Counted from the stretch's first letter, positions 30,182 through 61,049 are shown. The stretch is DNA of 64,000 bases from Gemmatimonadales bacterium (GCA_007692665.1 REBP01000087.1:62001-126000); one strand, 5' to 3'. Numbers and translations: made by a program. The notes: generated from the letters alone by a model not told the origin.

Positions 30182-30183
30182 GA

Positions 30184-33603: not shown

Positions 33604-33607
33604 CGGC

Positions 33608-34810: not shown

Positions 34811-36333
34811 GAGCGGCTCCGGGCCAGGGCTCGGAAGTGCTCGCCACGTTCGGCGTAGTCGCGGAACTCGTCGAAGGAGGCACAGGCCGGGGAGAGGAGG
34901 ACCACGTCACCGGGCACGGCGGCGCTCCGGGCCACGGCCACCGCTTCGTCCAGGCCTCCCTGAACGCGCTTCAGCGCGGGTCCGGGGGCTGCGGGGCCGG
35001 GGGCGGCGGATCCCGGGGTCGCAGCCGCGCCGCCGGTTCCCGCCCTCTCGAGCGCGGCCCGCAGTTCGGCCTCGAGGCGTGCACCGGCCTCCCCGAAGAG
35101 AATGGCCTCCCGGGCCCTGCCCCGGAGCGCGTCGGCCAGCGGGAGGAACGGCTCGCCCTTGTCCCGGCCACCCAGGAGCACCAGCACCGGCCGGTCGAGG
35201 GCCGCGATGGCGGTGCACGCCGCGGCCACGTTGGTCCCCTTCGAATCATTGACCCAGAGCACCCCGTCGGCCTCGGCCACCGGTTCCATGCGGTGCGCGA
35301 GGGGCCGGAAGGTCAGGAGCCCGTCGCGGATCCCCTCGTGGGTGGCGCCGGCCAGGCGCGCCACGAGGGCCGCGGCCAGGGCGTTTTCCACGTTGTGCGA
35401 ACCGAGCATGGGAAGGGCGTCGGCAGGCACGAGAGGGACCTCTTCGCCGGTACCCCCGCAGCGCTCGGGGATGCGGAGGGTCAGGATGCCGCGGCGGACG
35501 AAGGCGGCGGTGCGCTCCTCGCCGGCGCGGGCGTCGGCCGTCCCGGCCTCGGGGTCCCGGGAGAAGAGGAGTCGGACACCGGGCGCATCGCCGGGCAGGT
35601 CACGCACGCGGGGACTGCTTCCGTTCAGCACCCACCGGCTCCGGGCGTCCGCGTTCCGGAAGAGGCGCGCCTTGTCGGCGTAGTAGGCGTCGACGTCGGC
35701 GTAGCGGTCCAGGTGGTCGGGGGCGAGGTTCGTGACCACGCCGATGTCCGGGGCGAACCGGTCCGTGTCGGCCAGCTGGAACGAACTCATCTCCAGCACG
35801 CTCCACGCGGGGGGCGCGTCGCGAAGGGCCAGCTCCGACGCAGCGGGAGCGAGTCCGCCCCCCACATTTCCTGCCGCCTCCGCATCCACGCCACCACTCC
35901 GGAGCAGGTGCGCGGCAAGGAGCACGGTGGTGGTCTTTCCGTTCGTGCCGGTGACGGCGATCAGTGAACCCGGGAGGAACCGTACGGCAAACTCGGGTTC
36001 GGAGATCCAGCCGATGCCGCGCTCCCGGAGGCTTCGGAGCACCGGAGCGTCCGGAGGGATGCCCGGGGAGACGACGCGGGTTGCAGCCGAGGCGATCCGG
36101 GATGCGTCGTGGTGGCCCAGCTCGACGTGGGCTCCCAGGAGTTCGAGCTCACGGGCATGAGCGCGAGTCGGGGGGTCGGTACGGAGGTCCGAGACATGAA
36201 CGTGTTCTCCTTGCTTGAGGGCCAGACGGGCGGCGGCGAGGCCGCTGGCGCCGAGGCCGATGATGGACACCCCGGGGGTGGGGGCCCTGCCCTTCGGGCG
36301 GTCGTTCCGGGGTCCTTCGGCAGGGCGGCTCAC
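34807..36333 (-). CDS. murD: UDP-MurNAc-L-alanine-D-glutamate ligase
   Basis: Adds D-Glu to UDP-MurNAc-L-Ala. With 508 residues it is longer than the usual 440-450 because of insertions around 255-300 and a Pro/Ala/Gly stretch near 440. Motifs: IIGLGASGLAAARLA (N-terminal fold), VTGTNGKTTTVLL (ATP loop), SSFQL and NLAPDHLDRY in the central domain, NDSKGTNVAAA in the C-terminal domain. The start codon is GTG at 36333, overlapping the mraY stop (GTGA). Confidence 0.95.
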   Translation of the reverse strand: MSRPAEGPRNDRPKGRAPTPGVSIIGLGASGLAAARLALKQGEHVHVSDLRTDPPTRAHARELELLGAHVELGHHDASRIASAATRVVSPGIPPDAPVLRSLRERGIGWISEPEFAVRFLPGSLIAVTGTNGKTTTVLLAAHLLRSGGVDAEAAGNVGGGLAPAASELALRDAPPAWSVLEMSSFQLADTDRFAPDIGVVTNLAPDHLDRYADVDAYYADKARLFRNADARSRWVLNGSSPRVRDLPGDAPGVRLLFSRDPEAGTADARAGEERTAAFVRRGILTLRIPERCGGTGEEVPLVPADALPMLGSHNVENALAAALVARLAGATHEGIRDGLLTFRPLAHRMEPVAEADGVLWVNDSKGTNVAAACTAIAALDRPVLVLLGGRDKGEPFLPLADALRGRAREAILFGEAGARLEAELRAALERAGTGGAAATPGSAAPGPAAPGPALKRVQGGLDEAVAVARSAAVPGDVVLLSPACASFDEFRDYAERGEHFRALARSRS

Positions 36334-37463
36334 CGGATCTTGAGGGTGCTGAAGGCGGCGAGGGCGCAGAGGATGCCGAGGATCCAGAAGCGCACCACCA
36401 CCGTCTGCTGGATTTCCCTGCCACGCACCCGCTTCCGCTCCGCCCAGACGTGCTCGAAGTGGTGGTGGAGGGGCGCCATGCGGAAGACCCGCGCGCCCTC
36501 TCCCCGGGTGCGTTTCGTGACCTTGAACCAGCTCACCTGCAGCATGACCGAGAGCGCCTCGGCCACGAACACGCCCCCCACGATGAGGAGAAGGAACTCG
36601 GCCTTGAGGAGGATCGCCATGACGGCGAGCGCCCCGCCCAGGGCCAGGGATCCCGTGTCGCCCATGAAGACTTCGGCGGGGTGGGCGTTGTACCAGAGAA
36701 ACCCGGTGATCCCCCCCGCCAGCGCGGCGGCGAAGACGGCCAGTTCCCCGGTGCCCGGGAGGTACAGGAGCCCGAGGTACGCCGAGGTGTCCACGCGACC
36801 GATGAGGTAGGCCAGCACCCCGAAGGTGATGAAGGCGATGGCACCGAGCCCGCCTGCCAGGCCGTCCAGCCCGTCGGTGAGGTTCACCGCGTTCGATGTT
36901 CCCGACACCACGAGGGCGACGAAGACGACGAAGACCGCAGGGTGGAAGACCGCGACCCAGGCGTCGAAGAAGGGCACCATGGACCAGGTCGACGGCACCG
37001 GGTGGATCGGGTACAGGACCAGGAAGAGCCCGAGGGCGAGGCCGAAGCTGAGCTGCCCGATCATCTTGTAGCGGGCAATCAGCCCCCGGGGGCGGTGCTG
37101 CACGACCTTCAGGTAGTCGTCCATGAACCCGATGGCCCCCATCCAGAGGAGGGCCAGCAGCGTCAGGACCACGTACCAGTTCGTCAGTTCGGCCCAGAGG
37201 AGGGTCGAGGCCGTTGCGCCCAGGATGATGAGGACGCCCCCCATGGTGGGGGTGCCGGCCTTCTCCAGGTGGCTCTCGGGTCCCTCGCTGCGCACGACCT
37301 GCCCCACGCGGAGGAGCCGGAGCCGCCGGATCGTGGCGGGCCCCGCCAGGACGGCGCAGAGGAAGGCGGTGGCCCCGGCCCCCGCCGACCGGAAGGTCAG
37401 GTAGTTGAAGAGGTTGAAGAGAATGTGGACGTCCGCGAAGCCGGGGAGGAAATGGTAGAACAT
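36330..37463 (-). CDS. mraY: Phospho-MurNAc-pentapeptide transferase MraY
   Basis: An integral membrane enzyme forming lipid I from UDP-MurNAc-pentapeptide and undecaprenyl phosphate (377 residues, about ten helices). The Asp-rich signature GFMDDYLKV, the NLTDGLDGLAGG motif and FMGDTGSLALGGAL are all present. FRMAPLHHHFE is the conserved histidine motif. TGATG overlap with murF gives tight coupling. Confidence 0.96.
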   Translation of the reverse strand: MFYHFLPGFADVHILFNLFNYLTFRSAGAGATAFLCAVLAGPATIRRLRLLRVGQVVRSEGPESHLEKAGTPTMGGVLIILGATASTLLWAELTNWYVVLTLLALLWMGAIGFMDDYLKVVQHRPRGLIARYKMIGQLSFGLALGLFLVLYPIHPVPSTWSMVPFFDAWVAVFHPAVFVVFVALVVSGTSNAVNLTDGLDGLAGGLGAIAFITFGVLAYLIGRVDTSAYLGLLYLPGTGELAVFAAALAGGITGFLWYNAHPAEVFMGDTGSLALGGALAVMAILLKAEFLLLIVGGVFVAEALSVMLQVSWFKVTKRTRGEGARVFRMAPLHHHFEHVWAERKRVRGREIQQTVVVRFWILGILCALAAFSTLKIR

Positions 37464-38944
37464 CAGCCCTCTCCTCCCGGCGGTCCCGGCGGCCCGTGCG
37501 GCCTGTGCCCCCCGTGCGGGGAGCCGTCCGGTCCGGGGGCCGGCTTTCCGTCGAGGGCCTCGCCGAGCGCGGGAACCAGTCGCTCCAGGGCGATCCCCCG
37601 CGAGCCCTTCAGGAGGATCACCGCCCCGGGCTCGAGGCGCGGGAGCAGGAGGGGGAGGACCTGGTCGGTGTCGGGGGCCCGGAGGAGGCGGGGGTCGGCA
37701 ACGCCCGGGAGCGCCTCCGCGAAGAGCCCCACCGCCACGACGAGGTCCGCGCCACCGGAGAGCGCCTCCTGCAGGATGCGTTCGTGCAGGTCCCCCGCCA
37801 GGGCGCCGAGCTCCAGCATGCTTCCCAGCACGGCGATCCGGGGTCCCTCGGCCGGAAGCGCCTCCAGCCAGGCCAGCGCCGCCCGCGTGGACTGGGGGTT
37901 CGCGTTGTAGCAGTCCACGAGGAGCACCCCGCGGGCGTGGCGGCGGACCTCCGTCCGCATCCCCGGGAGAATCGTGGAGGGAAGCCCGGCCCGGGCCACC
38001 TCGGGCGCCACCCCCAGCAGGTCCGCCACGGCCAGCGCCAGCAGTGCGCAGCGGGCACCGTGGGCACCAGGGACCGGCGACACGAAGGAGCCCGACGGGG
38101 TCCCCACCCGCCAGCGCCCCACCGCGTCGGACTCGAGGAGGCGACCCCGCCAGGGCTGGTCCGCCCAGTCGGACAGACCTGCCACGCGGAGTTCGTGGCC
38201 GGGGGCCGCCTGGCGGGCGCGGTCGGCGAGTTCCGCCGGCTCGTCGCCCACCACCACCACCGCCCCGGACGGGAGATCCCGCAGGAGGGACAGTTTCTCC
38301 CGGTACACGCCCTCGAGGTCGCCCAGCCGTTCCACGTGGGCCTCGCTCACCGTGGTCACCACGGCGACATCCGGGTGGGCGACGCGGCGGAGCGCCTCGA
38401 TCTCGCCGGGTTCGTTCGTCCCCACTTCCACCACCACGACCTGGGCATCGTCGGGAGCGCTCAGCAGGGTCAGCGGGACCCCGACCCGGTTGTTCAGGTT
38501 GGCGGAAGTCACGTGGATGCGGAGGTGTCCGCGGAGCGCCGCTCGCAGCAGTTCCTTGGTCGTGGTCTTCCCCGAGGATCCGGTCACCGCCACGACCCGG
38601 GCCGGAAGCCGGAGCCGACGATGATGGGCGAGGGCACCCAGCGCCACCAGCGTGTCGGGAACCGGGAAGAGGGGGAACCCCTCCGGGCGTCCCGCCGGGA
38701 TCCGCCGGACGACGGCCCCGGTGGCCCCGCGTTCCGCGGCCTCCTCGAGGAAGTCATGTCCGTCGAAGCTCGGGCCCTCCAGCGCAACGAAGAGGTCCCC
38801 CGGACCGAGCGCCCGGGTGTCGGTGGAGACGTGGCGAAAGACCCGGTCCTGGTCCCGGGGGGCCGCGACGCCGCCGAGCCCGAGGGCCTCGCGCACCGCG
38901 GCAGCCGTCCAGGTGAACCCGGGTTCCCGGTGGGCGTCCGTCAT
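37463..38944 (-). CDS. murF: UDP-MurNAc-tripeptide-D-alanyl-D-alanine ligase
   Basis: The last cytoplasmic Mur ligase, adding D-Ala-D-Ala. From the ATG at 38944 it has 493 residues. N-terminal signature STDTRALGPGDLFVAL, ATP loop VTGSSGKTTTKELL, SANLNNRVGVPLTLL, EVGTNEPGEI, DCYNANPQS and VLGSMLELG. The C terminus ends in a Pro/Gly/His-rich tail (GPDGSPHGGHRPHGPPG), unusual for MurF and probably disordered. ATGA overlap with murE. Confidence 0.95.
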   Translation of the reverse strand: MTDAHREPGFTWTAAAVREALGLGGVAAPRDQDRVFRHVSTDTRALGPGDLFVALEGPSFDGHDFLEEAAERGATGAVVRRIPAGRPEGFPLFPVPDTLVALGALAHHRRLRLPARVVAVTGSSGKTTTKELLRAALRGHLRIHVTSANLNNRVGVPLTLLSAPDDAQVVVVEVGTNEPGEIEALRRVAHPDVAVVTTVSEAHVERLGDLEGVYREKLSLLRDLPSGAVVVVGDEPAELADRARQAAPGHELRVAGLSDWADQPWRGRLLESDAVGRWRVGTPSGSFVSPVPGAHGARCALLALAVADLLGVAPEVARAGLPSTILPGMRTEVRRHARGVLLVDCYNANPQSTRAALAWLEALPAEGPRIAVLGSMLELGALAGDLHERILQEALSGGADLVVAVGLFAEALPGVADPRLLRAPDTDQVLPLLLPRLEPGAVILLKGSRGIALERLVPALGEALDGKPAPGPDGSPHGGHRPHGPPGPPGGEG

Positions 38945-40557
38945 GGCCTCACCTCTCCGCCGAGGAGTTCCCGAAGGACGGCGCGCTCGTCGAAGTTCCG
39001 GACCTCGGTCCCCACGACCTGGTAGGTCTCGTGGCCCTTCCCCGCCAGCAGGATTGCATCTCCCGGCACGGCGATCTCCAGGGCCCGGGCCATGGCGAGG
39101 CGGCGGTCCTCGATGCGGATCCACCGGTGACCCTCGGCCTCGGCCGGCATGCCGGCGACGATGTCGTCCACGATGGCCGCCGGGTCCTCGGTGCGGGGGT
39201 TGTCCGAGGTCACGATGGCGAAGCCGGTGCCCTCGGCGGCGATGCGTCCCATCTCCGGACGCTTCGAGCGGTCCCGGTCCCCTCCGGCGCCGAACACGAC
39301 GATGAGCCGCCCCGGGTACAGTGGGCGAAGGGTCTCGATGACCCGCTCCAGCGCGTCCGGGGTGTGAGCGTAGTCCAGGATGACGGGAACCGGTTCGGTG
39401 AGGGTGAGCTCCATGCGTCCCGTGGGGGCCGGGGCCCCGGAGAGGTTCGCCGCCACCGTTTCGAGGGCCTGTCCTGCCGCGAGGGCGACGCCGGCTGCCA
39501 CGAGGGCGTTCTCGACGTTGAAGCGTCCGAGGAGCGGGAGGCGGACCTCGTGGCTCCCGGACTGTCCCTCCTCCCGGAGTTCGAAGTGCGATCCGGACCC
39601 GGAATAGCGGACCCGGTGTGCCAGGAGCGCGGGAAGGCGTTCGCCTCCGGCGGGAATCCCCGGCGCGGGCTCCCCGGCGAACCCCACCGGACGAACTCGA
39701 GCCTTCACCGGCGGGAGCCCGCTCCAGGCCGGGTCCCCGGCGTTCACCACCACCTCCGCATCCTCCGAAAGCAGGCCGAGGAGGTGCGCCTTGGCTTCGA
39801 AATACGCCTCCATGGACCGGTGATAGTCCAGGTGATCGCGGGACAGGTTCGTGAAGGCGGCGATGTTCACCCTGAGCCCGTCCAGCCGGCGCTGCTCCAG
39901 CGCGTGGGAGGACGCTTCCATGACCAGCTCCCGGACGCCCTCGTCCACGAGCGCGCGAATCCTGCGTGCGAGCGTCGCCGGCCCGGGCGTGGTGAGCCCC
40001 CCCGTCCCCTCCCGTACCCTGCCATCGGGACCCACCACACCCAGCGTTCCCAGCGCCGCCGACGGCCCGCTGTTCCCCAGCAGGTGCCGGACAAGCAGCG
40101 CCGTGGTCGTCTTCCCATTCGTTCCCGTGACCGCGGTCACACGTAGTTCGGCCGAAGGGTCGCCCAGGACCAGCATGGCCGCCAGGGCGGCGCCGGAGCG
40201 GCCATCGGCAACCCGGAGCTGGGGGATCTCGACGTCGTTCACGAACCGTTCCACGAGGGCCGCGGCGGCCCCCCGTGCCATGGCATCGCCGAGGAAGTCG
40301 TGGGCGTCGTGGTCCGTCCCCTTCCAGGCGAGGAACAGGTCACCGGGGTCGATCAGCCGGGAGTCCTGTGCGACCCCGGTCAGTGCCACGGTGTCCCCGG
40401 CCCCGTCCCCGGCCCCGCCCCCCGGCATGCGGAGCTCGGCACCGAGACCGCGGTCCCGAAGCATGCCGCTCAGGCGAGCGAGTTCCAGGGGGCGCGCGAC
40501 GGGAAGCCGCCCGGATGCCGGGGTCATGCTCTCGCGGGATCCGGGGGAGACCGTCAT
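38941..40557 (-). CDS. murE: UDP-MurNAc-L-Ala-D-Glu:meso-DAP ligase
   Basis: Adds the third residue of the stem peptide (538 residues from the ATG at 40557). VAQDSRLIDPGDLFLA, ATP loop GTNGKTT (145-151), TTPGPATLARRI and NLSRDHLDYH are present. DNPR at 452-455 within SDNPRTEDPA is the meso-diaminopimelate specificity motif, so the wall is of the DAP type, as expected in a diderm. An open frame continues far upstream but is antisense-like composition over ftsI. ATGA overlap with ftsI. Confidence 0.95.
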   Translation of the reverse strand: MTVSPGSRESMTPASGRLPVARPLELARLSGMLRDRGLGAELRMPGGGAGDGAGDTVALTGVAQDSRLIDPGDLFLAWKGTDHDAHDFLGDAMARGAAAALVERFVNDVEIPQLRVADGRSGAALAAMLVLGDPSAELRVTAVTGTNGKTTTALLVRHLLGNSGPSAALGTLGVVGPDGRVREGTGGLTTPGPATLARRIRALVDEGVRELVMEASSHALEQRRLDGLRVNIAAFTNLSRDHLDYHRSMEAYFEAKAHLLGLLSEDAEVVVNAGDPAWSGLPPVKARVRPVGFAGEPAPGIPAGGERLPALLAHRVRYSGSGSHFELREEGQSGSHEVRLPLLGRFNVENALVAAGVALAAGQALETVAANLSGAPAPTGRMELTLTEPVPVILDYAHTPDALERVIETLRPLYPGRLIVVFGAGGDRDRSKRPEMGRIAAEGTGFAIVTSDNPRTEDPAAIVDDIVAGMPAEAEGHRWIRIEDRRLAMARALEIAVPGDAILLAGKGHETYQVVGTEVRNFDERAVLRELLGGEVRP

Positions 40558-42827
40558 CGGCGTTGGCCCCCGGCCACGCGGGGGGGACCCGCGGCAGATC
40601 GCGAGGCTTCGGGAGCTGCGGCAGAGGATCCGGAAAAGGCGCCGGCGGGCGCGCCGCCCCCGGGGGCCAGGCGTGGCAGCGGCGCGGCGTGTTTCCCCAG
40701 CACCCGGATCGTGTCGCCGGGATGGACCCGTGCTCCAGCCCCCGGCAGGGTCGACGCGGCAGCGCCCTGGCCCTCCCACGAGACGTGGAGCCCGAGGCCG
40801 TGCAACCGCCGGATGACGTCTCGCGCCGGAAGGCCCCGAACCTCCGGAACGGCCACCTCGCTCCCGGGCAGTGCGGGAATGCGCGGGTCCAGCGCCGCAG
40901 CCCCGGAGCGTGCTTCCCACGATGCGAAGAGGGCGGGAACGCCCCCCTGGGGCCGGGAGATGTCCCCTGCCAGGGCGAGGGCCGTTCCGGCGCCGCCGAG
41001 GCCGGGAGCCCCGACCTGTTCCGAGGACTGCGGCGCGGTCGAGCCCGACGGCGCGCCGGCGTGCCCGGGCTCCCCCCCCTCCTCGAGCGCCCGCTCCATG
41101 GCTTCCAGTTCCACCCGGGTCCGGAGTTCCTGCTCCTGCCGGCGGGCAATGGAGGCCAGCGCCTGCCGGTCCAGCGGAGGATGCCGGGCCGCGAGCACCG
41201 CCTCCATCGTGGCCCGGGTCACCGGCGCTGCCGTGACACCGCCGTAGTAGGTCCCCTGGGGGCGATCCAGCTTCACGAACACCACCAGCTGGGGGTTCTC
41301 CGCCGGAAAGAACCCGACGAAGGAGGCGAAGTAGGCGCCGCTTTCGTAGCGCCCGTCCAGCCCCGTGGCCCGGGCGGTTCCGCTCTTTCCGGCAACCTGG
41401 AAGGTGCCGAGGCTGGCGCGGGTTCCGGTGCCGTCCTGGACAGCCTCGACCAGCGCCCGGTTCACCTCCTCCGACGTGGAGGTCGAGATGGCCCGCCGCA
41501 CGACCCGCGGCTCCTGCCTTTCGAGGACCCGGCCGTCGGGGGCGCGGACCTCCCGGACAAGGCGTGGCTCCATGAGGAGGCCTCCGTTGGCCAGCGCCCC
41601 GTAGGCCATGGCCATCTGGAGCGGGGTCACGGCGATCTCGTACCCGATGGAAAGCGATACCGCCGACTGCCCGGACCAGTTTCTCGGGTGCCGCAGCGTG
41701 CCCGAGGCCTCGCCGGGAAGGGGGAGCCCCGTGGGTACGCCGAAGCCGAAGTCCCGGAGCACTTCGAACTGCTCCAGCGGTGCATAGGCGCCGGCGACCT
41801 TCGCAATTCCCACGTTGGACGAGACACGGAGGGCGTGCGACAGGCTCACCTTCCCCACCCGGGACACGTCGGAAATGGTCCGCCGCCCCACGGTCCACCG
41901 GCCCTCCTCGGTGTCCACCGAGTCCGCCATGGAAGCGAGCCCGAGTTCGAGGAGGCCGGCCACCGTGAAGGGCTTGAGGGTGGAACCGGGCTCATAGGGG
42001 GTGTTCACCCCCCCCAGGTGGTTGGAGGAGCCATCCTGGATCGACACCATGGCGAGGATCTCTCCGGTGCGCGGGTCGGTGACGAGGAGGTCCCCTCCCC
42101 GGGCCCCGGTTTCCGCAATGGCCTCGAGAAGGGCCTCCTGCGCGATCTCCTGGAGGTCCCGGTCCAGCGTCAGGACGATGTCGCCCCCGGCCCTGGGGGC
42201 CTGGATCATCCAGGTTTCCCCGGGGATGGGACGACCCTCCGAGTCCCGTGCCACGATCTGGGACCCCGGCATTCCCCGGAGGTGGTCCTCGTAGGCCTGC
42301 TCGATCCCTCCGGTGCCCGCATCGTCGATGACGACCCCCAGGATCCCGCGGCCAAGCTCTCCATGGGGATAGGACCTCGACAGCTCCCGCTCCACGTAGA
42401 TCCCCCGGGCCCGGGCCAGCGCCTCTCGCGCCCGTGGCGGATACCGCTGCGGGAGCTGGACCCAGCGGCGGTCCGACGAGACGGCGCGGCGGGCATCGGC
42501 GGGTGCCAGGCCGAGGGCCTCCACCAGGAGCGCTGCGGCGGCGTCCCGGTCCAGGAGTTCGTGGGGCGCGATCCCCACCCGGAAGACCTCGTGACTCATG
42601 GCGAGGGGCGTCCCCTCCCGATCCAGGATCCCCCCCCGCGCGGCGGGGAGCGTCCCCTGTGCCTGGTGCTGCCGTTCGGCCTCGGCCCGCCACACGGCGC
42701 CTTCCTTCAGCTGCACTTCTCCGGCACGGAAGAGGAGGCCGCCCAGGGCCAGCACCCACCCGGCCATGAGGATCCTCCCCCGGAAGGCGGGAGAGCGAAG
42801 GGTGCGTCCAAGGTCACGCAGGCTCAT
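40554..42827 (-). CDS. ftsI: Class B penicillin-binding protein FtsI (PBP3) with PASTA domain
   Basis: The septal transpeptidase, about 757 residues. An N-terminal membrane helix (ILMAGWVLALGGLLFRAG) precedes the pedestal, with ARGGILDREGTPLA at about 63-76. The active site comprises STLK (282-285, nucleophile Ser282), SSN (336-338) and KSG (481-483). After a variable linker a PASTA domain (VAVPEVRGLPARDVIRRLHGLGL) lies near 660-720, and the chain ends in a Pro/Ala/Ser tail. I start at the second ATG (42827) because it gives the ATGA overlap seen across the cluster; ATG 42833 is possible. Confidence 0.93.
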   Translation of the reverse strand: MSLRDLGRTLRSPAFRGRILMAGWVLALGGLLFRAGEVQLKEGAVWRAEAERQHQAQGTLPAARGGILDREGTPLAMSHEVFRVGIAPHELLDRDAAAALLVEALGLAPADARRAVSSDRRWVQLPQRYPPRAREALARARGIYVERELSRSYPHGELGRGILGVVIDDAGTGGIEQAYEDHLRGMPGSQIVARDSEGRPIPGETWMIQAPRAGGDIVLTLDRDLQEIAQEALLEAIAETGARGGDLLVTDPRTGEILAMVSIQDGSSNHLGGVNTPYEPGSTLKPFTVAGLLELGLASMADSVDTEEGRWTVGRRTISDVSRVGKVSLSHALRVSSNVGIAKVAGAYAPLEQFEVLRDFGFGVPTGLPLPGEASGTLRHPRNWSGQSAVSLSIGYEIAVTPLQMAMAYGALANGGLLMEPRLVREVRAPDGRVLERQEPRVVRRAISTSTSEEVNRALVEAVQDGTGTRASLGTFQVAGKSGTARATGLDGRYESGAYFASFVGFFPAENPQLVVFVKLDRPQGTYYGGVTAAPVTRATMEAVLAARHPPLDRQALASIARRQEQELRTRVELEAMERALEEGGEPGHAGAPSGSTAPQSSEQVGAPGLGGAGTALALAGDISRPQGGVPALFASWEARSGAAALDPRIPALPGSEVAVPEVRGLPARDVIRRLHGLGLHVSWEGQGAAASTLPGAGARVHPGDTIRVLGKHAAPLPRLAPGGGAPAGAFSGSSAAAPEASRSAAGPPRVAGGQRR

Positions 42828-43177
42828 GGCCACATCTCGGCGTCGAGGTCGGGGTGCGAAGCGGAATCGGCGTCGGGCTCGAGGATGCGGACGGAGCCCC
42901 CGGGCGCGAGCAGCACGATGTTTGCGGCGCCCGGCGTCCGCATGCCCAGGCGCTCCCGTGCGGCAGGGACCACGTGGCCCCGGCTCTCGAGACTCTGGAT
43001 CCTGCGCTCGAACGCGGCACGCTCCGCCCGGACGAGGGAGATCTCGCGGTGAAGGGCGTCGAGCTCCGCCATGGCCTCCCGGGCCCGGGACTGCCGCCAG
43101 GTCACCAGCGAGAGCGAAAGGAGAAGAGCCGCCAGGCCCACCGCCGTGAGGACCACGCCCCAGCCGCCCCGCTTCAT
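42824..43177 (-). CDS. ftsL: Cell division protein FtsL
   Basis: A 117-residue bitopic divisome protein. One membrane helix (GVVLTAVGLAALLLSLSLVTW, about 6-26) is followed by a coiled coil (ALHREISLVRAERAAFERRIQSLES) and an extracytoplasmic tail with AARERLGMRTP, the usual end of the FtsL coil. Low sequence conservation is normal; the call relies on topology and its place between rsmH and ftsI. ATGA overlaps at both ends. Confidence 0.88.
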   Translation of the reverse strand: MKRGGWGVVLTAVGLAALLLSLSLVTWRQSRAREAMAELDALHREISLVRAERAAFERRIQSLESRGHVVPAARERLGMRTPGAANIVLLAPGGSVRILEPDADSASHPDLDAEMWP

Positions 43178-44175
43178 GCCGCCTTCCTCCAGACCCGGAA
43201 CCGCGCGCTCCGCGCCCGGGGGTTCGCGGCCACCTCGGCCTCGGAGGGGCGCCCCACCGAGCGGTTCACCAGGGACCCCAGCGCATGACCCCGGCACTGG
43301 CAGCGCAGGAGTTCGGGGGGGCAGACGCAGCTTCGGCTCCACTCCCGGAACGCGTTCTTGACCTCCCGGTCCTCGAGGGAGTGGTAGCTGAGGACGGCCA
43401 GCACGCCGCCCGGCCGGAGGGCGTCGCGGAGCGTCGGGAGGGCATTTTCCAGCGCCTCGAGTTCCCTGTTCACCTGGATGCGGAGGCCCTGGTAGACGCG
43501 GGCCTTCTCCTTGGCGCGCACGGGGCGACGGTAGATCGAGGCCAGCGCCTCGTTCAGGTCGGCGGCGCGGACGAAGGGTGCCTTCTCGCGGCGCGCCACC
43601 ACGGCCCGGGCCAGGGCGCGACCGCGTGGCTCCTCGGCCAGCCGCCAGAACAGGAGTTGCAGTTCCTCCTCGGGCCAGCTGTTCAGGATCTCGGCGGCGG
43701 TGAGCCCCTCGCCCGAGTCCATCTCCATGCGGGCGTCGAGGGGGGCGTCGTCGCGGAAGGTGAACCCCCGCTCCGACGCATCGATCTGCCGGGAGCTGAT
43801 CCCCAGGTCCAGGAGTGCGCCGGACAGGGGTTCGCCGCGGTCCAGGAACTCCTGTGCCGCGTCGTCGAATCGGGCCTGCACGAGGCGGACGCGGTCCGCG
43901 AACGGGCTGAGCCGGAGCCGAAGCGCCGCCATGGCCTCGGGATCCCGGTCCACGGCCACGAGGCGAAGGCTGGGGTACCGGGTCAGCAGGGCATGGCTGT
44001 GGCCCCCGCCGCCGGCCGTGCCGTCAAGGACGAGACCATCGGAGGCGGGCTCCATGGCCTCCACCACCTCGTGCACCATGACGGGCACATGGTAGGCGTC
44101 GCCGGCGGGAGGGGTCGGGTCCGACCCCGTGCCCCCACCGCTGCCCCCGCTCCCTGACTCCTGCTGCTCGTCCAC
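43174..44175 (-). CDS. rsmH: 16S rRNA m4C1402 methyltransferase RsmH
   Basis: An SAM-dependent enzyme that N4-methylates C1402 of 16S rRNA (formerly MraW). I use the GTG at 44175 (333 residues); GGGGGAG lies 5 bases upstream and overlaps the mraZ stop. HVPVMVHEVVEAM opens the fold, the SAM loop is DGTAGGGGHSHALL, and LLDLGISSRQID, RVYQGLRIQVNREL and SYHSLEDREVKNAF are family signatures. The first 22 residues are a Gly/Ser-rich extension. Confidence 0.94.
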   Translation of the reverse strand: MDEQQESGSGGSGGGTGSDPTPPAGDAYHVPVMVHEVVEAMEPASDGLVLDGTAGGGGHSHALLTRYPSLRLVAVDRDPEAMAALRLRLSPFADRVRLVQARFDDAAQEFLDRGEPLSGALLDLGISSRQIDASERGFTFRDDAPLDARMEMDSGEGLTAAEILNSWPEEELQLLFWRLAEEPRGRALARAVVARREKAPFVRAADLNEALASIYRRPVRAKEKARVYQGLRIQVNRELEALENALPTLRDALRPGGVLAVLSYHSLEDREVKNAFREWSRSCVCPPELLRCQCRGHALGSLVNRSVGRPSEAEVAANPRARSARFRVWRKAA

Positions 44176-44188
44176 CGGCTCTCCCCCG

Positions 44189-44629
44189 TCAGCCGAAGAT
44201 CTGTACATCCAGATCGGTGAGGTCCTCGTCGTCCAGCGTTGCGCGCTCCACGGTCGTGGCAAAGGTCTCCGGGTCCCAGAACTCGATGCGGTCCACGTTC
44301 CCCGTGACCACCACGGTGCCCTCGAGCCCCACGGCCTCCTTGAGCCCGGCAGGGATCAGGATCCGCCCCTGCTTGTCCGGGTCCACGTGAACGGCGCGGG
44401 AGGTAATCCTGCGGAGGCGATTCAGCATCGCCGGCTGCGTGCGCCGGAGTTCGAGGATCCGCGCCTGCACCCCTTCCCACACATCCATGGGAAGGAGGGT
44501 GAGGTGCGTGGGTTCCCACTGGAGCAGCACGAAGCGCGATCCGTCGGCCTCCTTTCGGAAGTCCGCAGGGAGACTGACCCTCCCCTTCGGATCGAGCTGG
44601 TACTCGTACCGCCCCAGGAAACTCGCCAC
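44189..44629 (-). CDS. mraZ: Transcriptional regulator MraZ
   Basis: A DNA-binding regulator of the division cluster (146 residues). Both SpoVT/AbrB-like halves are visible: GRYEYQLDPKGRVSLPADFR and VDPDKQGRILIPAGLKEAVG. Start is GTG at 44629 (VASFLGRYEY) with GAGG 8 bases upstream; the frame is open to 44845, but the upstream part overlaps the operator boxes. MraZ forms a ring that binds repeated GTGG boxes in front of its own gene, as found directly upstream here. rsmH, its usual partner, follows. Confidence 0.95.
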   Translation of the reverse strand: MASFLGRYEYQLDPKGRVSLPADFRKEADGSRFVLLQWEPTHLTLLPMDVWEGVQARILELRRTQPAMLNRLRRITSRAVHVDPDKQGRILIPAGLKEAVGLEGTVVVTGNVDRIEFWDPETFATTVERATLDDEDLTDLDVQIFG

Positions 44630-54495: not shown

Positions 54496-54619
54496 GGATG
54501 CGCTTCGCAGATCCCCGGCCCACGGTGCTGTCGTGACCATGTAGTGGGCGCTGAGGGATGCGCTTCGCAGATCCCCGGCCCCCGGTGCTGTCGTGACCAT
54601 GTAGTGGGCGCTGAGGGAT
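54496..54619. repeat. 60-bp tandem duplication including the tRNA-Val 3' end
   Basis: Bases 54496-54559 recur at 54556-54619 with an exact 60-bp period and a single substitution (A at 54531 against C at 54591). The right copy contains the last 15 bases of tRNA-Val plus the next 45 bp; the left copy repeats them, so a second tRNA 3' end (TGGGCGCTGAGGGAT at 54545-54559) lies 60 bp downstream of the true one. Confidence 0.9.
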
Positions 54620-54679
54620 TCGAACCCCCGACCCCCTGCTTGTAAGGCAGGTGCTCTGAACCGGCTGAGCTAAGCGCCC
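54605..54679 (-). tRNA. tRNA-Val (anticodon TAC)
   Basis: The minus strand folds into a full cloverleaf of 75 bases: acceptor GGGCGCT/AGCGCCC, D stem GCTC/GAGC, anticodon stem CCTGC/GCAGG with loop CTTACAA (anticodon TAC, reading GUA), T stem GGGGG/CCCTC with loop TTCGAAT, discriminator A. CCA is not encoded. It lies 8 bp from the stop of the small membrane protein gene. Confidence 0.95.
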
Positions 54680-55043: not shown

Positions 55044-56132
55044 TCACGAGAAGGGCGTCCACCAGGTGGGCGGGGTTTCGCCGCTCGCCTCGTTCCGCCG
55101 GAGGCGTTCAAGTCGCTCCCTGTCCCGTCGCCGCCGGATTCCGAAAAGCACGAGAAGCACGACACCGAGGATCCCCCACACGAACGCCGTCTGCGAAAGG
55201 AAGATCATCCACCCGTAGCGGCGTCGGACATGCTGGATCCACCGGGACTCGAACTGGGACGGACTCATCCCGAAGGTTTCCCGGAACGCCCGGTCGAAGC
55301 TCCGACTCTCCTGCCAGCGATCAAGGAAGACTTCCATGCCCCGGATCCCGCTCTCCTCCACCAGGTAGGTGACCGCGCTGGCCGAGAGAAGGTAGGCGAG
55401 TTCCGCCGACTGGCGGTCCCGGGGCCAGGCCAGCGTGAGTTCCTGGAGGGGTGGGGCCGAGCCTCTGGCGAGCGCCACCCGGAGCCGCCAGCCGGACGTG
55501 GCGTCCCAGCCGCCCGACGCCCACTGGGCGTAGCCTTCGTCGAACCATCGCGGGATGCGCAGACCCTCGAGATGGGAATGCAGTCCGAGGTGAGCCCACT
55601 CGTGCCGGAGGGTGCGGTCCTCCGAGACGCCACCACTCCAGGGGGCACGGAAGAGCGGCAGAACGATCCGGTCCAGCGAGGGGATCGCGACCCCTGCCCC
55701 CCAGTGCGGGACCTGTCCCCCCGTGTAGGCATCCCAGGCGGCGAGATCGGGCGCCAGGACCACCTCGGCCCGCACGGGTTCATGGGGAGGGAGCCCGGGC
55801 AGGGCCGCGTGTCTGGCGAGCACGAGGGCAGTTCGCTCGGCCCGACCCGCCGACCCGTCCCAGTAGAGGATCCGGACCCGGCCCGCCAGCTCCTCGTGGT
55901 CGGGGACGAGGACATGGGGGGTGCCGGGGGATCCGGCCGTGTCCCCCGGCACGGGGCGGAGCGACCCCTCCGCCGGAGCCGCAGGGAGCGGACCCGCGAG
56001 GAGCATCGCGAGGAGGAGGATCGCGGCCGGGAGCATGCCGGCCAGGAGTGATCCCGCCAGGAGCACCCCCGCCCTGCGGCTGGACCTCCGCAGCCAACCC
56101 AGGTCGAGCCCGGGGGGCCGGCCCCCGGTCAT
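55044..56132 (-). CDS. Peptidase-MA-like membrane metalloprotease
   Basis: A 362-residue protein from the ATG at 56132. A signal/anchor (residues 20-52) precedes a gluzincin-type catalytic region: HEWAH at 177-181 gives the HExxH zinc site and WFDEGYAQW (Glu199) the third ligand. A C-terminal helix (FLSQTAFVWGILGVVLLVLFGI) anchors it, followed by a basic cytoplasmic tail. The catalytic set looks intact, so a cell-envelope protease is likely; substrate unknown. ATGA overlap with the DUF4388-TPR gene places it in the roadblock/DnaA-like operon. Confidence 0.78.
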   Translation of the reverse strand: MTGGRPPGLDLGWLRRSSRRAGVLLAGSLLAGMLPAAILLLAMLLAGPLPAAPAEGSLRPVPGDTAGSPGTPHVLVPDHEELAGRVRILYWDGSAGRAERTALVLARHAALPGLPPHEPVRAEVVLAPDLAAWDAYTGGQVPHWGAGVAIPSLDRIVLPLFRAPWSGGVSEDRTLRHEWAHLGLHSHLEGLRIPRWFDEGYAQWASGGWDATSGWRLRVALARGSAPPLQELTLAWPRDRQSAELAYLLSASAVTYLVEESGIRGMEVFLDRWQESRSFDRAFRETFGMSPSQFESRWIQHVRRRYGWMIFLSQTAFVWGILGVVLLVLFGIRRRRDRERLERLRRNEASGETPPTWWTPFS

Positions 56133-57757
56133 CGGCTCGCTGACGACGCGGCCAGCTGCAGGTTGGTCCGGACCACCTCGTTCCGCGGGTTCAGCTCCAG
56201 GGCGCGTCGCCAGTGCTGGAGGGCGAGGTCCCGGTCCCCCTCCTTGTACGAGATGTTCCCGAGCTTGAAGTAGACGTCGTCGCCGAGGGTCGGGTCGATT
56301 CGCACCGCCCGTTCGAAGTGGGCGCGGGCCCCCGCCTGGTCTCCCCTTCGGTACGCCAGGTCCCCGAGATTCTTGTGAGCCTGCGGTGGGGTGGGTGACG
56401 CGGAAAGGGCCCGAAGGTAGAGGGCTTCGGCGGCGGCACCCTGTTCCCTGGCCTCCAGCACGACGCCGAGGTTCACCAGGATGGCCCCTTCTGCCGGATG
56501 GTGGGAAACGCCTTCCCTCCCGATTCCCAGGGCGGCATCGGCATCCCCGGTGGCCGCAGCCGCGAGGATCGCCCATGCGTAGTACAAGGGCGAAGGCACC
56601 TCCCCACCGGAAAGCCCGCTCCGAAAACGTACCAGAAGGTCCCACGCCCTGCGCGGCCGCCCGGACTTGAGGAGGGGAATGGCCCGCGCGAGAAGGAGGT
56701 CCCGGTCCCCGGGATGCGACTCCGCCAGTGCTTCGAGCAGCTCCACCGCCTCGTCATGCCGATCCATGAGTTCCAGCGCCAGGGCCCGGTTCCGGATTCC
56801 TGCCGGGGCCTCCCGCACCCCGTCGGGCGCGGCAGCGTAGTGCGCCAGGGCCTCGGCGTTCCGACCCGTCCGCAGGCAGATGAGGGCGAGGCGACGCCGC
56901 GCCGTGGGTTCGGCCTCGATCTTCTCCACGATGGAACGGTACTCCCGCTCCGCATCCTCGAACATTCCGGCCCGGTAGTAGGCACCGCCCACGTTGAGCG
57001 CCTGCTCCACCCCCCCGGCTGCCGCCTCGTCGGATGCCGGCTCCTGTCGCTGTCCGACGGAGCGGATGAACCCGGCCTGGACCAGCCCGTACAGGGCCTT
57101 TGCCACGTCGAACTCCACCAGGCCGGTCTCGAGAACGAGCTCCCGGGCCGTATGGTGACCGTCGACGAGGGCGAGGAGCCGCTCCTGGTCGGGCGTGAGT
57201 TCCACGTCGTGAACGTCGTCCCGGGGTTCGACGGCGAAGACCACGTCCATGGACGGGATCTTCTTCGCGATCATCGACCACTCGTCCACCCGCCGCGCCC
57301 CCTCCAGGAGAAGGCTTTCCGCGTTGATGGACACGTCGGAGGTGGCCTCCTCGTCAGGCTGCGCATCGGGCTCGAAGTGGAAGGCCCCGCGGTCCCACGA
57401 GAAGAGGTGGTAGACGGCTTCCTCGATCTGAACGGTGATGAAGCGCTGGAGCTCGTTCTCGCCGAGGTCGCCGCGTTCCACCAGGATCTGCCCCAGCCGC
57501 TTGCCCGGCTCCCGGGCCTGGTCCTCCATGGCACGGGAGAGCTTCTCGCGGTCGATGACCTGGTTCCGGACGAGGAGTTCCCCGAGGCGATCGGGGCGGT
57601 TCAGCACGTTGGCGTACACGACACGGCCGTCATCGAGATAGATGTAGCCGAAGCTGGCACGGTCGGTGACGGTGAGGCAGCCGGTCTTCCGCCCCACGGC
57701 AAGGAGCTGGATGATGTCCGCCAGGCTCACGTCCGCGAGCTGTCCCTCGATGGCCAT
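56129..57757 (-). CDS. DUF4388 (PATAN-type) and TPR protein
   Basis: A 542-residue cytoplasmic protein. Residues 1-75 match the DUF4388 start (MAIEGQLADVSLADIIQLLAVGRKTGCLTV ... GRVVYANVL). A helical segment (about 76-130) has DREKLSRAMEDQ and a repeat-like LGENELQRFITVQIEEAVY, and a short winged-helix-like part (LTPDQERLLALVDGHHTARELV) lies near 190-230. From about 260 to the end are TPR repeats. DUF4388 and TPR proteins commonly serve two-component or MglA-type signalling. Here it sits between the double DnaA-like protein (19 bp upstream) and a protease gene. Confidence 0.8.
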   Translation of the reverse strand: MAIEGQLADVSLADIIQLLAVGRKTGCLTVTDRASFGYIYLDDGRVVYANVLNRPDRLGELLVRNQVIDREKLSRAMEDQAREPGKRLGQILVERGDLGENELQRFITVQIEEAVYHLFSWDRGAFHFEPDAQPDEEATSDVSINAESLLLEGARRVDEWSMIAKKIPSMDVVFAVEPRDDVHDVELTPDQERLLALVDGHHTARELVLETGLVEFDVAKALYGLVQAGFIRSVGQRQEPASDEAAAGGVEQALNVGGAYYRAGMFEDAEREYRSIVEKIEAEPTARRRLALICLRTGRNAEALAHYAAAPDGVREAPAGIRNRALALELMDRHDEAVELLEALAESHPGDRDLLLARAIPLLKSGRPRRAWDLLVRFRSGLSGGEVPSPLYYAWAILAAAATGDADAALGIGREGVSHHPAEGAILVNLGVVLEAREQGAAAEALYLRALSASPTPPQAHKNLGDLAYRRGDQAGARAHFERAVRIDPTLGDDVYFKLGNISYKEGDRDLALQHWRRALELNPRNEVVRTNLQLAASSASR

Positions 57758-57776
57758 CGTCAGCTTCTCCGGACGA

Positions 57777-59618
57777 TCATGGGAGTTCCTCCACGATGCG
57801 GTCCTCGATCCTGTGCCACCGCCAGACCACCCGGTCCTGTGGCGGCAGCCAGGCCGGCGTCTCCCGCTCGGCCGTCACCGCGACCCCGTTGGTCCTGTCG
57901 CCGGGAGCTTCCGGGGACCGATGGATCGACGGCGCGGCCGATCCCGTCGCAGCCGAGGGCGCCGTCACCGCAGGCGGGGCGGCATCCGGGCCCAGGTCGA
58001 GCACCAGGCCCCCCTGGAAGCGGGATCGAAGGCGATCATCGATGCCTTCAAGACGGGATGCCGGGCGGTCGGCTGCCAGGAAGATGCGGGCGCCCTTTCG
58101 CTTCAGCGCCTCGAACAGGTGAAAGAACTCCTCCTGTGCCCGTTCCGTGCCGCCCAGGGATTCCACCTCGTGGAGGAGGAGAAGGTCCAGGGTCCACCAG
58201 CGTTCCCGCCACGCACCCGCGACGCCCGCCGAGAGGGCGGCAATGAACTCCTCGCTGAAGTCGGGCACCGAGAGGAGCCCCACGATTCCCTTCGGGTGCT
58301 GCTGCTGGTAGGCCCGGCCGCAGGCCTCGAGGAACCCCCGGGTCCTGGCGGCTTCCGGTGCGTGCACGAAGAGGGGGTTGTAGTGCGGCGCGTCGGTTTC
58401 CATGGCGCGTTCGGCCGCCCTCCGCGCCAGCGCCGGAAAGCGGCTTCCGGAGGCGGCGAGATCCGGGCCGGGCGGAATGACCGGAAAGGCGCGGGAGCGC
58501 TCCACCGCAAGCGCCAGCAACCGTTCCGCCTCGTCCAGGAGATCGGGGTCGCGCAGGACGAGTTCGGCGTCGGTGGGCCACGGGGCCGGGAGCGCCTGGA
58601 GTTCGTTCCGGATCTCGCGGAGTCGATCCATGTCCTTTCGGAACCCCAGGAGGATCGCCTGCCAGTCCGGTGGCCCGTTGCCCCCGATCTCCAGCAGCCG
58701 TCGAATCCGTTCCGCCGAGTATCCCGCCGACTCCACCGCCGCGATGACCGTGCGGAAGGCGCGTTTCCACTCGGGTTCGGAGGGGACCGCGCGATCCTCC
58801 GCTCGACCGGCACCCGCGGCATCCCCCACGCCCGACCCGGGCGCCTCTCCGACGGCCACGACGGCGGAGAACTGCTCCCCCAGGACCGAGGCCAGTTCGT
58901 GAGGCGGCACCAGGCGTTCCTCGAGTTCCTGGATCGCGAGCAGCCGGTTCAGCGCGCCCTGCAGCTCGCGGACGTTCTGAAACGGGTAGCGCGCCAGGAG
59001 TTCCGCCACCCCATCCGCCAGGCGCGCCTTCCGCTCCTCCACCTTCCGCCGCATGATCGCCACGCGGGTCTCGTAGTCCGGAAGCCCCATGTCGACGATG
59101 AGGCCGCCCGAGAACCGTGAAAGCAGCCGGGCATCGAGACCGTTGATCTCCGCGGGCGGGCGGTCCGACGCGAGGACCACCTGGGCCCCCCGGGTGGTCA
59201 GCGTGTCCAGCGTCCGCAGCAGCATCTCCTGCGCCTGGGCCTGCCCGGTGAGGAACTGGACGTCGTCAAGGAGCAGGATCTCCACCCGGGCATATCGATC
59301 GAGCGCTGCGCCGCTTCCTCCCACCTCGAGCGCCCGGGTCAGGTAGTCCAGGTACCCCTCGAGGGTCTCGTATTCCACGAGGCGTGTCGGGTGGGTCCGG
59401 ACGGCGTGATGGGCGATGGCGTTCAGGATGTGGGACTTGCCGAGCCCCGACGCCGAGTAGAGGAAGAGAGGGTTGTAGCTCGTGCCGGGGGACTCGGCGG
59501 CTCGCCGTGCCGCAGCGGAGGCCAGCCGGTTGGCCGGCCCCACCACGAGGGTATCGAAGGTGAGGCGGGGGTCGAAATCGGGCCCGGCCTCTCCGGAGCG
59601 GAACCCCTGTGCGCTCAT
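57777..59618 (-). CDS. Protein with two DnaA-like AAA+ modules
   Basis: A 613-residue protein. Module 1 (about 15-250) is DnaA/Hda-like: FDTLVVGPANRLASAAA, P-loop SASGLGKSH (55-63), Walker B LLLDDVQ (115-121), sensor LASDRPP and the arginine region LLSRFSGGL. Module 2 (about 390-545) repeats the layout (RFPALARRAAE, YNPLFVHAP, LLLHEVESLGG, LAADRPASRL, RLRSRFQGGLVLDLG) but has no GK[ST] at its P-loop position (419-427), so it cannot bind ATP normally. No DnaA domain IV (DNA-binding HTH) is present. It is not the replication initiator; it may be a regulatory ATPase. ATGA overlap with the roadblock gene. Confidence 0.72.
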   Translation of the reverse strand: MSAQGFRSGEAGPDFDPRLTFDTLVVGPANRLASAAARRAAESPGTSYNPLFLYSASGLGKSHILNAIAHHAVRTHPTRLVEYETLEGYLDYLTRALEVGGSGAALDRYARVEILLLDDVQFLTGQAQAQEMLLRTLDTLTTRGAQVVLASDRPPAEINGLDARLLSRFSGGLIVDMGLPDYETRVAIMRRKVEERKARLADGVAELLARYPFQNVRELQGALNRLLAIQELEERLVPPHELASVLGEQFSAVVAVGEAPGSGVGDAAGAGRAEDRAVPSEPEWKRAFRTVIAAVESAGYSAERIRRLLEIGGNGPPDWQAILLGFRKDMDRLREIRNELQALPAPWPTDAELVLRDPDLLDEAERLLALAVERSRAFPVIPPGPDLAASGSRFPALARRAAERAMETDAPHYNPLFVHAPEAARTRGFLEACGRAYQQQHPKGIVGLLSVPDFSEEFIAALSAGVAGAWRERWWTLDLLLLHEVESLGGTERAQEEFFHLFEALKRKGARIFLAADRPASRLEGIDDRLRSRFQGGLVLDLGPDAAPPAVTAPSAATGSAAPSIHRSPEAPGDRTNGVAVTAERETPAWLPPQDRVVWRWHRIEDRIVEELP

Positions 59619-60034
59619 CGATCAGGCTCCAGCGAATCCTCGAAGGATGCGGCGTCGAGGACAATGGGACCGCCGGGCACCCGCGGCGCCAGGGCCCGGA
59701 GGTGACCGGGAAGCACGCGTTCCCACCCCTCCTGCCGCGGCCCCTCCACGTGGAGGAGGATGACGTGAATCGCCGGGGGCGGGACCCGGATCAGCAGGAT
59801 CTCGCCATCCTCCACCCGGATGCGCAGCAGGGCGGGACCGGGATGCCCGGCCGCCTCGGAGAGCCGGGCCCCGGAGGCGTGGAGCCCGGCGACGAGCGAG
59901 GCCACCTGGATGCGGGCAGAGCGCTCGCGAAAGCCGAACTGCTCCACGACCCGCCCCGACAGGTCCACGAGAAGGACACCGCGGACAAAGGGGAGCGCCA
60001 CGAAGGCATCGAGGAGCCCGGTGCCCGGACTCAC
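59615..60034 (-). CDS. Roadblock/LC7-domain protein
   Basis: A 139-residue protein from the GTG at 60034 (GTGA overlap with rluD). Residues 5-100 follow the roadblock/LC7 pattern: LLDAFVALPFVRGVLLVDLSGRVVEQFG, a helix (ARIQVASLVAGLHAS), and strands ending GEILLIRVPPPAIHVILLHVEG. Bacterial roadblock proteins (MglB-like) act as partners or GTPase-activating factors for small GTPases such as MglA; no such GTPase is in this window. Tight coupling to the DnaA-like gene suggests a direct partnership. Confidence 0.7.
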   Translation of the reverse strand: MSPGTGLLDAFVALPFVRGVLLVDLSGRVVEQFGFRERSARIQVASLVAGLHASGARLSEAAGHPGPALLRIRVEDGEILLIRVPPPAIHVILLHVEGPRQEGWERVLPGHLRALAPRVPGGPIVLDAASFEDSLEPDR

Positions 60035-61017
60035 GGAAGGGGGCCTCCCTCTTCCTCGCCGTGGACCCACCGGACGGACGCCGCCAGGTCCTCGGGCAGG
60101 GGCGAGTCAAAGGTCATGACCTCACCGGTCATCGGGTGCCGGAACTGGAGCCGGCGGGCGTGAAGGAACTGCCGGGGCACGCGCCGCGCCAGCGCGCTGG
60201 CCCAGGCGTGTGCGTCGCCGCTCATGCCGCGTTCCCAACCGGCGCCGTAGAGGGCGTCCCCCACCACGGGGTGCCCCTGGCTCGCCAGGTGCACGCGGAT
60301 CTGGTGGGTCCGTCCGGTTTCGAGGGCCACGTCCACCAGGTCGGCGGCGCGCCACTGCTCCCGGACCCGCACGTGGCTCACGGCGGGGCGCCCGTCGGAT
60401 ACCACCGCCATGCGCTTCCGGTTGGACGGATCCCGGCCGATGGGCGCGTCGATGCGCCGGGGGGTGTCGTCCAGGTGGCCCCACGTGGCGGCACGGTAGA
60501 GGCGCCGGATCTCCCGCGTCCGGAGGGCCTCGGAGAGGACGCGGTGGGCCTGGTCGTGCTTCGCCACCACCAGGAGTCCGGACGTGTCCTGGTCGAGACG
60601 GTGCACGATGCCCGGACGGAGTTCCCCCCCGATCCCCGAGAGGTCGTCCACGTGGTGGAGGAGCGCGTTCACCAGTGTCCCCGTGAGGTGTCCCGGCGCC
60701 GGGTGCACGACCATGCCGGCGGCCTTGTTCACCACCAGGAGGTCCGTGTCCTCGTGGACGATCTCCAGCGGGAGGTCCTCGGGTTCGGCCTTCGCGAGCT
60801 GGAGCGCCGGGAGTACCACCTCGATCCGGTCGCCGGCGGCGAGGGGCTCGGCCTTGCGCGGCGTCCCGCCGTTCCAGGTCACGTGACCGTCGGCCACGAG
60901 CGATGCCACGCGGGTGCGCGACAGGTCGAGGGCCTCCGACACCCATCGGTCGAGGCGTTCTCCGTCTCCGTCGGGCCCGACGACGAGTTCGTGGCGATCC
61001 ATGCTGGCGTCCTGCAT
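60031..61017 (-). CDS. rluD: 23S rRNA pseudouridine synthase RluD
   Basis: A pseudouridine synthase of the RluA/RluD family modifying helix 69 of 23S rRNA. The S4-like domain is at the N terminus (ERLDRWVSEALDLSRTRVASLV), the catalytic motif GIVHRLDQDTSGLLVVAK contains the catalytic Asp, and the C terminus has ETGRTHQIRVHLASQGHPVVGD. I choose the ATG at 61017, preceded by GGAGAAGAG; 61035 and 61002 are alternatives. Family members differ in target, so RluD is the most likely rather than proven. It follows ileS by about 33 bp. Confidence 0.87.
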   Translation of the reverse strand: MQDASMDRHELVVGPDGDGERLDRWVSEALDLSRTRVASLVADGHVTWNGGTPRKAEPLAAGDRIEVVLPALQLAKAEPEDLPLEIVHEDTDLLVVNKAAGMVVHPAPGHLTGTLVNALLHHVDDLSGIGGELRPGIVHRLDQDTSGLLVVAKHDQAHRVLSEALRTREIRRLYRAATWGHLDDTPRRIDAPIGRDPSNRKRMAVVSDGRPAVSHVRVREQWRAADLVDVALETGRTHQIRVHLASQGHPVVGDALYGAGWERGMSGDAHAWASALARRVPRQFLHARRLQFRHPMTGEVMTFDSPLPEDLAASVRWVHGEEEGGPLP

Positions 61018-61049
61018 CCGTTCTCTTCTCCCCATGGGTGGTCCGGGCC

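Follow-up and report, generated by a model that had tools for sequence, protein, structure and literature searches.

What does a protein do that carries two DnaA-type AAA+ modules but not the DNA-binding domain of DnaA? The question is raised by a locus in a 64,000-nucleotide (nt) stretch of DNA from a Gemmatimonadales bacterium (GCA_007692665.1 REBP01000087.1:62001-126000), here called the window, in which positions are counted from the first letter. The original prediction, made from the sequence of the window, described positions 56129 to 60034 as a three-gene operon of a roadblock protein, a double DnaA-like AAA+ protein, and a protein combining DUF4388 with tetratricopeptide repeats (DUF4388-TPR). 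The ATGA and 19-nt junctions of that operon were found as described, but its extent was not, as it continues into rluD upstream and a peptidase gene downstream. With about even confidence, we consider the AAA+ protein to be an ATP switch that has a cyclic di-GMP (c-di-GMP)-binding DUF4388-TPR partner and acts within an MglA-linked system that controls the polarity or activity of type IV pili. On the strength of sequence comparisons, surface-motility signaling appears to have taken over the engine of a replication initiator.

The AAA+ protein, 613 amino acids (aa) long and encoded at positions 57777 to 59618 on the minus strand, contains two stretches matching Pfam Bac_DnaA (whole-protein E value, 4.9e-73). 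Its AlphaFold2 model (mean predicted local distance difference test [pLDDT], 86) has two AAA+ alpha/beta folds, both with a pLDDT above 90, so that the second half, as well as the first, folds as AAA+. Module 1 (residues 16 to 256) includes a lid and is followed by a disordered stretch and then a helical linker domain (residues 281 to 375), while module 2 (residues 380 to 545) is modeled without a lid and is followed by a disordered tether and a moderate-confidence tail (residues 590 to 613; codons with the stop at 57777 to 57851, minus strand). Every orthologue, single-module ones included, retains a conserved linker and tail, with tail residues W601 and E610 present in 41 and 39 of the 41 orthologues, respectively. 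The complete DnaA-type module and the absence of domain IV had both been predicted; Bac_DnaA_C, the domain IV family, was not listed by Pfam for the window protein, nor did it appear among the 25 families that were shown for the 41 orthologues.

Module 1 retains the DnaA catalytic residues. The lysine of its Walker A motif, SGLGKS (K61), and the Walker B residues D118 and D119 occur in all 41 orthologues, sensor-1 D152 and arginine finger R168 in 40, and box VII R164 and sensor-2 R217 in 37. Its best structural match is domain III of Bacillus subtilis DnaA (8bv3), with a template modeling (TM) score of 0.94, a root mean square deviation of 1.5, and 39% identity; because of this match and the adjacency of the AAA+ and DUF4388-TPR genes in all 40 loci described below, the arrangement is not due to chance. 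A second DnaA-type gene lies on another contig of the genome (G000:C199) and is presumably the true dnaA. In module 2 of the window, the P-loop is indeed lost, as predicted, with HAPEAARTRGF in its place, and Walker B is broken (HE), but box VII R529 and arginine finger R533 are retained. The profile of module 2 matches Hda (5x06; E value, 1e-10). Profile comparisons with the three families to which the original prediction had pointed were uneven, with a strong match to DnaA (TIGR00362, 342.2 bits, just under the cut-off of 343.9), a score for the Hda model that did not reach its threshold (TIGR03420, 99 bits versus 194.8), and weak matches to the IstB and DnaC types. No Hda-type clamp-binding motif was seen by inspection in residues 1 to 27, no motif search having been run.

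The neighboring DUF4388-TPR protein (542 aa; positions 56129 to 57757, minus strand) is assigned to the PATAN/DUF4388 family both by Pfam (E value, 8e-40) and by a modeled beta-sheet with a helical insertion. Its AlphaFold2 model (mean pLDDT, 92) places the PATAN sheet ahead of the TPRs, and a Foldseek search with this model returned mostly TPR proteins. Between PATAN strands lies an insert of four helices (about residues 57 to 119), and within it the NCBIfam MshE-related c-di-GMP model NF053729 scores 48.5 bits against a cut-off of 38; the same model matches 40 of the 41 orthologues. The closest solved relatives of the insert are the MshEN domains of PilB (6olj; E value, 2e-8) and MshE (5htl; E value, 6.5e-5). 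The MshEN motif is a pair of RLGxx(LVI)(LVI)xxG..LxxxLxxQ repeats (PMC5013675), and the two half-motifs found here span residues 57 to 80 and 87 to 110 (54 residues including the spacer; codons at 57428 to 57589, minus strand). Measured against the published motif, at least 90% of the orthologues keep Arg57 (41 of 41), Leu58, Gly59, Leu73, Gln80 (38 of 41), Gly89, Leu103, and Gln110 (38 of 41), and the window departs from the consensus at residues 66, 77, and 97. The motif indicates that the DUF4388-TPR protein is probably a c-di-GMP sensor or receptor.

The gene neighborhood was surveyed in 40 loci from seven families of one Gemmatimonadota class, chosen by the AAA+ gene alone, with neighbors (CheW, CheY, CheA, CheC, CheR, CheD, CheB, roadblock, and TPR proteins) named by Pfam. 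The AAA+ gene preceded the DUF4388-TPR gene in every one of these loci, the two being no more than 30 nt apart in 36, and an MglA gene lay directly upstream of it in 32 of the 34 loci outside f1, the family of the window. In the six other families, the site from rluD to the peptidase gene is a single chemosensory/MglA operon. Its complete order, stitched from overlapping regions and with some genes missing in some loci, is ileS, a small gene, lspA, rluD, CheW, CheY, CheA, CheC, a TPR gene (900 aa), a first DUF4388-TPR gene, TPR/roadblock, roadblock, roadblock, MglA, AAA+, DUF4388-TPR, CheR, CheD, CheB, CheW, CheW, TPR, and peptidase. The GTPase is MglA, matching Myxococcus xanthus MglA with an E value of 5e-73, and the 156-aa roadblock protein of the relatives is MglB-like (E value, 1.4e-7). 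In a part of f5 (L052 and L053), the gene caller detected no roadblocks in the interval from the smaller DUF4388 gene to MglA.

At the corresponding f1 site, the order is rluD, sometimes a roadblock gene, AAA+, DUF4388-TPR, and peptidase. At the window's locus there is no MglA gene, and CheA, CheW, CheY, CheR, and CheB, all present at this site in relatives, are absent between rluD and the peptidase gene. With the che and mgl genes gone from the f1 site and the pair kept, the window locus is therefore a reduced form of the operon. Two f1 members with full operon contigs (L089 and L090) were excluded as possible contamination; the MglA of one of them is 82% identical to that of another family. 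In three further f1 loci (L035, L036, and L037), a protein of 440 to 477 aa encoded downstream matched the CheB query, probably due to its receiver domain. Among the f1 loci examined, a roadblock gene stands beside the AAA+ gene only in the window and in genus g11. The predicted gene order was thus upheld for the AAA+ and DUF4388-TPR genes, and with the second half folding as AAA+, neither of the outcomes named as refuting the original prediction was seen. The proposal that the roadblock protein is a general partner or regulator in this lineage failed; judged by this distribution, it is an accessory outside the core of the system.

The co-occurrence of genes within f1 extends the comparison beyond the locus. 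Among the 44 genomes scored in both the AAA+ and the MglA searches, the AAA+ gene was found with MglA in 22 and without it in none, with MglA alone in 5 and neither in 17 (Fisher P = 8e-8, ignoring relatedness). At least two PilT-family matches were present in 24 of 26 f1 genomes with the AAA+ gene versus 1 of 45 without it (P = 1.5e-15, likewise ignoring relatedness), and within genera g8, g13, g14, and g24, genomes without the AAA+ gene show fewer PilT matches. These counts were made by hand from tables, and a few genomes with ambiguous matches were left out. The original prediction had offered replication, polarity, or secretion as roles; of these, the comparative evidence favors polarity, with motility, because the full operon combines MglA and MglB-like roadblocks with chemosensory genes and because genomes with the AAA+ gene tend to have MglA and PilT as well. 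The MglA gene of the window genome is split by contig ends (L087 and L088), across which the order is dnaX, a small gene, recR, a pair of short genes of 115 and 161 aa that have no Pfam match, MglA, pgsA, and cinA.

How the dead module came about can be read from a tree of all modules rooted on DnaA. Every family's module 1 falls into one clade (Shimodaira-Hasegawa-like approximate likelihood ratio test [SH-aLRT] support of 99), and every module 2 falls into another (SH-aLRT, 97). The duplication therefore predates the families, and f3 and f9 reached their single-module state by loss; by this phylogeny, both modules descend from one old duplication of DnaA domain III. The P-loop of module 2 is intact in f4, f5, and f6 and in three of four f2 sequences, and it is dead in one f2 sequence and in all f1 sequences examined, whose module 2 sits on a long branch. 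The distribution indicates that module 2 was live ancestrally, died in f1, and was deleted in f3 and f9. The live/dead pair of the original prediction is thus real in f1 but is not a general design, since most other families have two live modules or a single live one, and a live/dead pair as the ancestral state was ruled out by the tree. Module 2 of L052 and L053, in f5, ends without a lid.

Although about a quarter of the 34 module 2 sequences have lost the P-loop, Arg533 is present in 33 and Arg529 in all 34. The ratio of nonsynonymous to synonymous substitution (omega), read from in-frame pairs after many rows in wrong frames or strands (5 to 48% identity) had been set aside, was 0.038 for module 1 and 0.045 for the dead module 2 in the f1 pair L003/L004, the sole pair with unsaturated synonymous sites. 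At this value, the dead module 2 is under purifying selection, and the retention of Arg533 and Arg529 places the interface matching the neighbor-ATP contact of DnaA among the features that selection retains. In DnaA, Arg285 touches the ATP of the neighboring subunit (PMC5742627). The persisting arginine finger suggests that module 2 would work in cis like Hda, and in f1 it is probably an in-cis Hda-like activator or an oligomer cap.

In the mechanism that we propose, a paralogue of DnaA domain III that was duplicated in tandem and lacks the remaining domains of DnaA would have been taken up as the ATP-driven element of an MglA, chemosensory, and c-di-GMP network, with the DUF4388-TPR protein as its constant partner. 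Module 1 would bind and hydrolyze ATP, and module 2 would pack on the ATP site of module 1, in the same or a neighboring chain, either stimulating hydrolysis or capping an oligomer, as Hda does with DnaA. The conserved tail on its disordered tether would dock on the partner, perhaps in the TPR groove, and c-di-GMP on the DUF4388 insert would gate the complex. The output would be on the pilus extension ATPase, by analogy with PATAN-PilB1 and MglA-SgmX. PATAN proteins bind PilB1 (PMC9090330, on PATAN-REC proteins; PMC7690835), MglA-GTP acts on PilB via the TPR protein SgmX (PMC7519303), and genes for MglA and MglB are found near PATAN genes (PMC4316618). A more specific version, in which a nonreplicative, c-di-GMP-gated ATP switch controls type IV pili by polymerizing or cycling at the cell pole and the dead module serves as a built-in Hda, is put forward tentatively.

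The closest known systems differ from this one in several respects. Module 1 shares with DnaA domain III the complete fold, catalytic residues, and lid, but here the domain is in tandem, lacks domain IV, carries a conserved linker and tail, and in relatives belongs to a che/mgl operon. Hda, which acts in the regulatory inactivation of DnaA (RIDA), is likewise a DnaA-type module with an arginine finger, and module 2 could similarly stimulate hydrolysis on another module; it differs in being in cis in one chain, without a lid and with no clamp-binding motif seen, and whereas known Hda binds ADP, module 2 of the window has no P-loop. The M. xanthus polarity system of MglA, MglB, and SgmX, together with Frz, also combines MglA and MglB-like roadblocks with TPR proteins and chemosensory components. 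In M. xanthus, mglA sits away from the genes of its partners (PMC4316618), whereas the relatives carry all of these in one operon and add the DnaA-derived AAA+ protein and DUF4388/MshEN proteins. The cyanobacterial regulators PixE and LsiR also tie a PATAN domain to type IV pilus control, through a REC fusion in place of the TPR fusion and near-consensus MshEN motif in a helical insert seen here. That motif shares with the MshEN domains of MshE and PilB the two RLGxx..Q half-motifs and four helices, and it differs in a spacer of six residues rather than five, in the replacement of Gly66 by Gln in the window, and in being embedded in PATAN.

Several observations count against an MglA-linked pilus switch. 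The pilus output is drawn by analogy, and since the ATPase core of DnaA is almost completely preserved in module 1, DNA or DnaA may be its target. The Gly66-to-Gln change in the first MshEN motif of the window makes its affinity for c-di-GMP uncertain. In f1 the local MglA and che genes have been lost, MglA lies at a separate locus (dnaX-recR-MglA-pgsA in the window genome), and the link to the AAA+ protein is one of ancestry and co-occurrence; the co-occurrence counts are not phylogenetically independent, and in some genomes MglA or PilT occurs without the AAA+ gene.

The main rival is regulation of DnaA, in which the AAA+ protein would be an Hda-like partner that forms mixed oligomers with DnaA and couples the motility or c-di-GMP state to initiation. 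The 39% identity of module 1 to domain III with all catalytic residues, the Hda match of the module 2 profile, and an arginine finger without a P-loop, as would fit an activator of DnaA-ATP hydrolysis, all agree with it. We nevertheless regard it as unlikely, given that domain IV was not found, that inspection of the N terminus revealed no Hda-type clamp-binding motif, that linkage in six families is to che and mgl rather than replication genes, and that the gene is missing from many near-complete f1 genomes, having been lost along with pilus genes. ParA-like ATPases encoded in che clusters position or maintain chemosensory arrays in other bacteria, and in six families the AAA+ gene sits midway through a che operon, which is compatible with such a role; yet f1 has lost every che gene at the locus and kept the pair, a retention that an array-only role cannot explain, and we rate this slightly below DnaA regulation.

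Still less probable is that the pair is a decaying remnant of little function whose module 2 has been degenerating since the system was lost. The loss of che and mgl genes from the site, the dead P-loop in all f1 members examined, and their long branch would be expected of a remnant, but omega is about 0.04 to 0.05 for module 2, equal to that of module 1, in the one unsaturated pair, synteny has held across many genera, and conservation within f1 extends to the motifs of module 1, to Arg533, to the tail, and to the DUF4388 motif. Lowest of all we place a nucleic-acid adaptor or helicase-loader-like protein of the DnaC/IstB type, regulated by DUF4388-TPR. The matches to IstB and to DnaC/DnaI-type families that would speak for it are far weaker than those to DnaA, an identity as a helicase loader or IstB protein was rejected on that account, the protein lacks a DNA-binding domain, and neither a transposase nor a helicase partner lies nearby.

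All five genes of the window's locus, rluD, roadblock, AAA+, DUF4388-TPR, and peptidase, are on the minus strand. The rluD gene (60031 to 61035) forms the upstream border of the locus in relatives and is overlapped by GTGA by the roadblock/LC7 gene (59615 to 60034; 139 aa, GTG start), which in turn overlaps the AAA+ gene by ATGA at 59615 to 59618. The 19-nt gap separates the AAA+ and DUF4388-TPR genes, and a second ATGA overlap joins the latter to the gene for a Peptidase_MA_2 (HEWAH) membrane protein (55044 to 56132; Pfam E value, 1.3e-12), the downstream border in nearly all relatives. The window's roadblock protein matches Robl_LC7 (E value, 1.7e-8), with no MglB structure among its matches and no meaningful match in the PDB. 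A role in antiphage defense was discarded, PADLOC having given one trivial match alone (mad8; E value, 0.004). Further away are a tRNA-Val (TAC; 54604 to 54679, minus strand), whose 3' end lies inside a 60-nt direct tandem duplication (54496 to 54555 and 54556 to 54615, 98% identical) that is possibly an integration or excision scar, and short transposase-like open reading frames at 8015 to 8698, which are probably insertion element remnants. Genes for division and the cell wall (ftsZ, ftsA, mur genes, and mraZ) are clustered at 27586 to 44629, about 10 kb from the operon, and in some relatives (L045) homologues of mraZ and rsmH follow the che/mgl operon within a few kilobases.

Outside the phylum, the MglA P-loop pattern was found at 80 loci in many phyla. 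One of them, in a Desulfomonile metagenome-assembled genome (L150:1942-4926), has the order roadblock, MglA, DUF4388, and a DnaA-like AAA+ gene of 388 aa. It thus resembles the present system in placing a DnaA-like AAA+ protein beside DUF4388, MglA, and roadblock, but with a single module without linker or tail and a DUF4388 protein without the MshEN insert, and is apparently a separate pairing of such an ATPase with MglA and DUF4388. The C terminus of the L150 DUF4388 protein looks roadblock-like by eye. Zixibacteria loci share part of the mgl/DUF4388 order, with the AAA+ gene absent from the stretch examined, and a search of 50 genomes from the MglA-pattern set otherwise gave mainly DnaA-length matches. 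As seen so far, the tandem family is confined to one Gemmatimonadota class, with a looser parallel elsewhere.

No description of the system was found in the open-access literature searched, which covered DUF4388 together with roadblock proteins, DnaA-like proteins together with MglA, and chemosensory systems of Gemmatimonas. The parts are already known; what appears to be new is the way in which they are combined and the use of a DnaA core for another task. If true, this would be, to our knowledge, the first known case of an initiator ATPase core reused for motility and polarity. An ATPase core usually seen as tied to the origin would then have been repurposed for signaling, and MglA/chemosensory polarity control would gain a component driven by ATP, along with a likely input from c-di-GMP. 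The natural series of live/live, live/dead, and single-module proteins offers a direct test of the role of a dead AAA+ partner, and the operon provides a testable handle on surface motility in the Gemmatimonadota.

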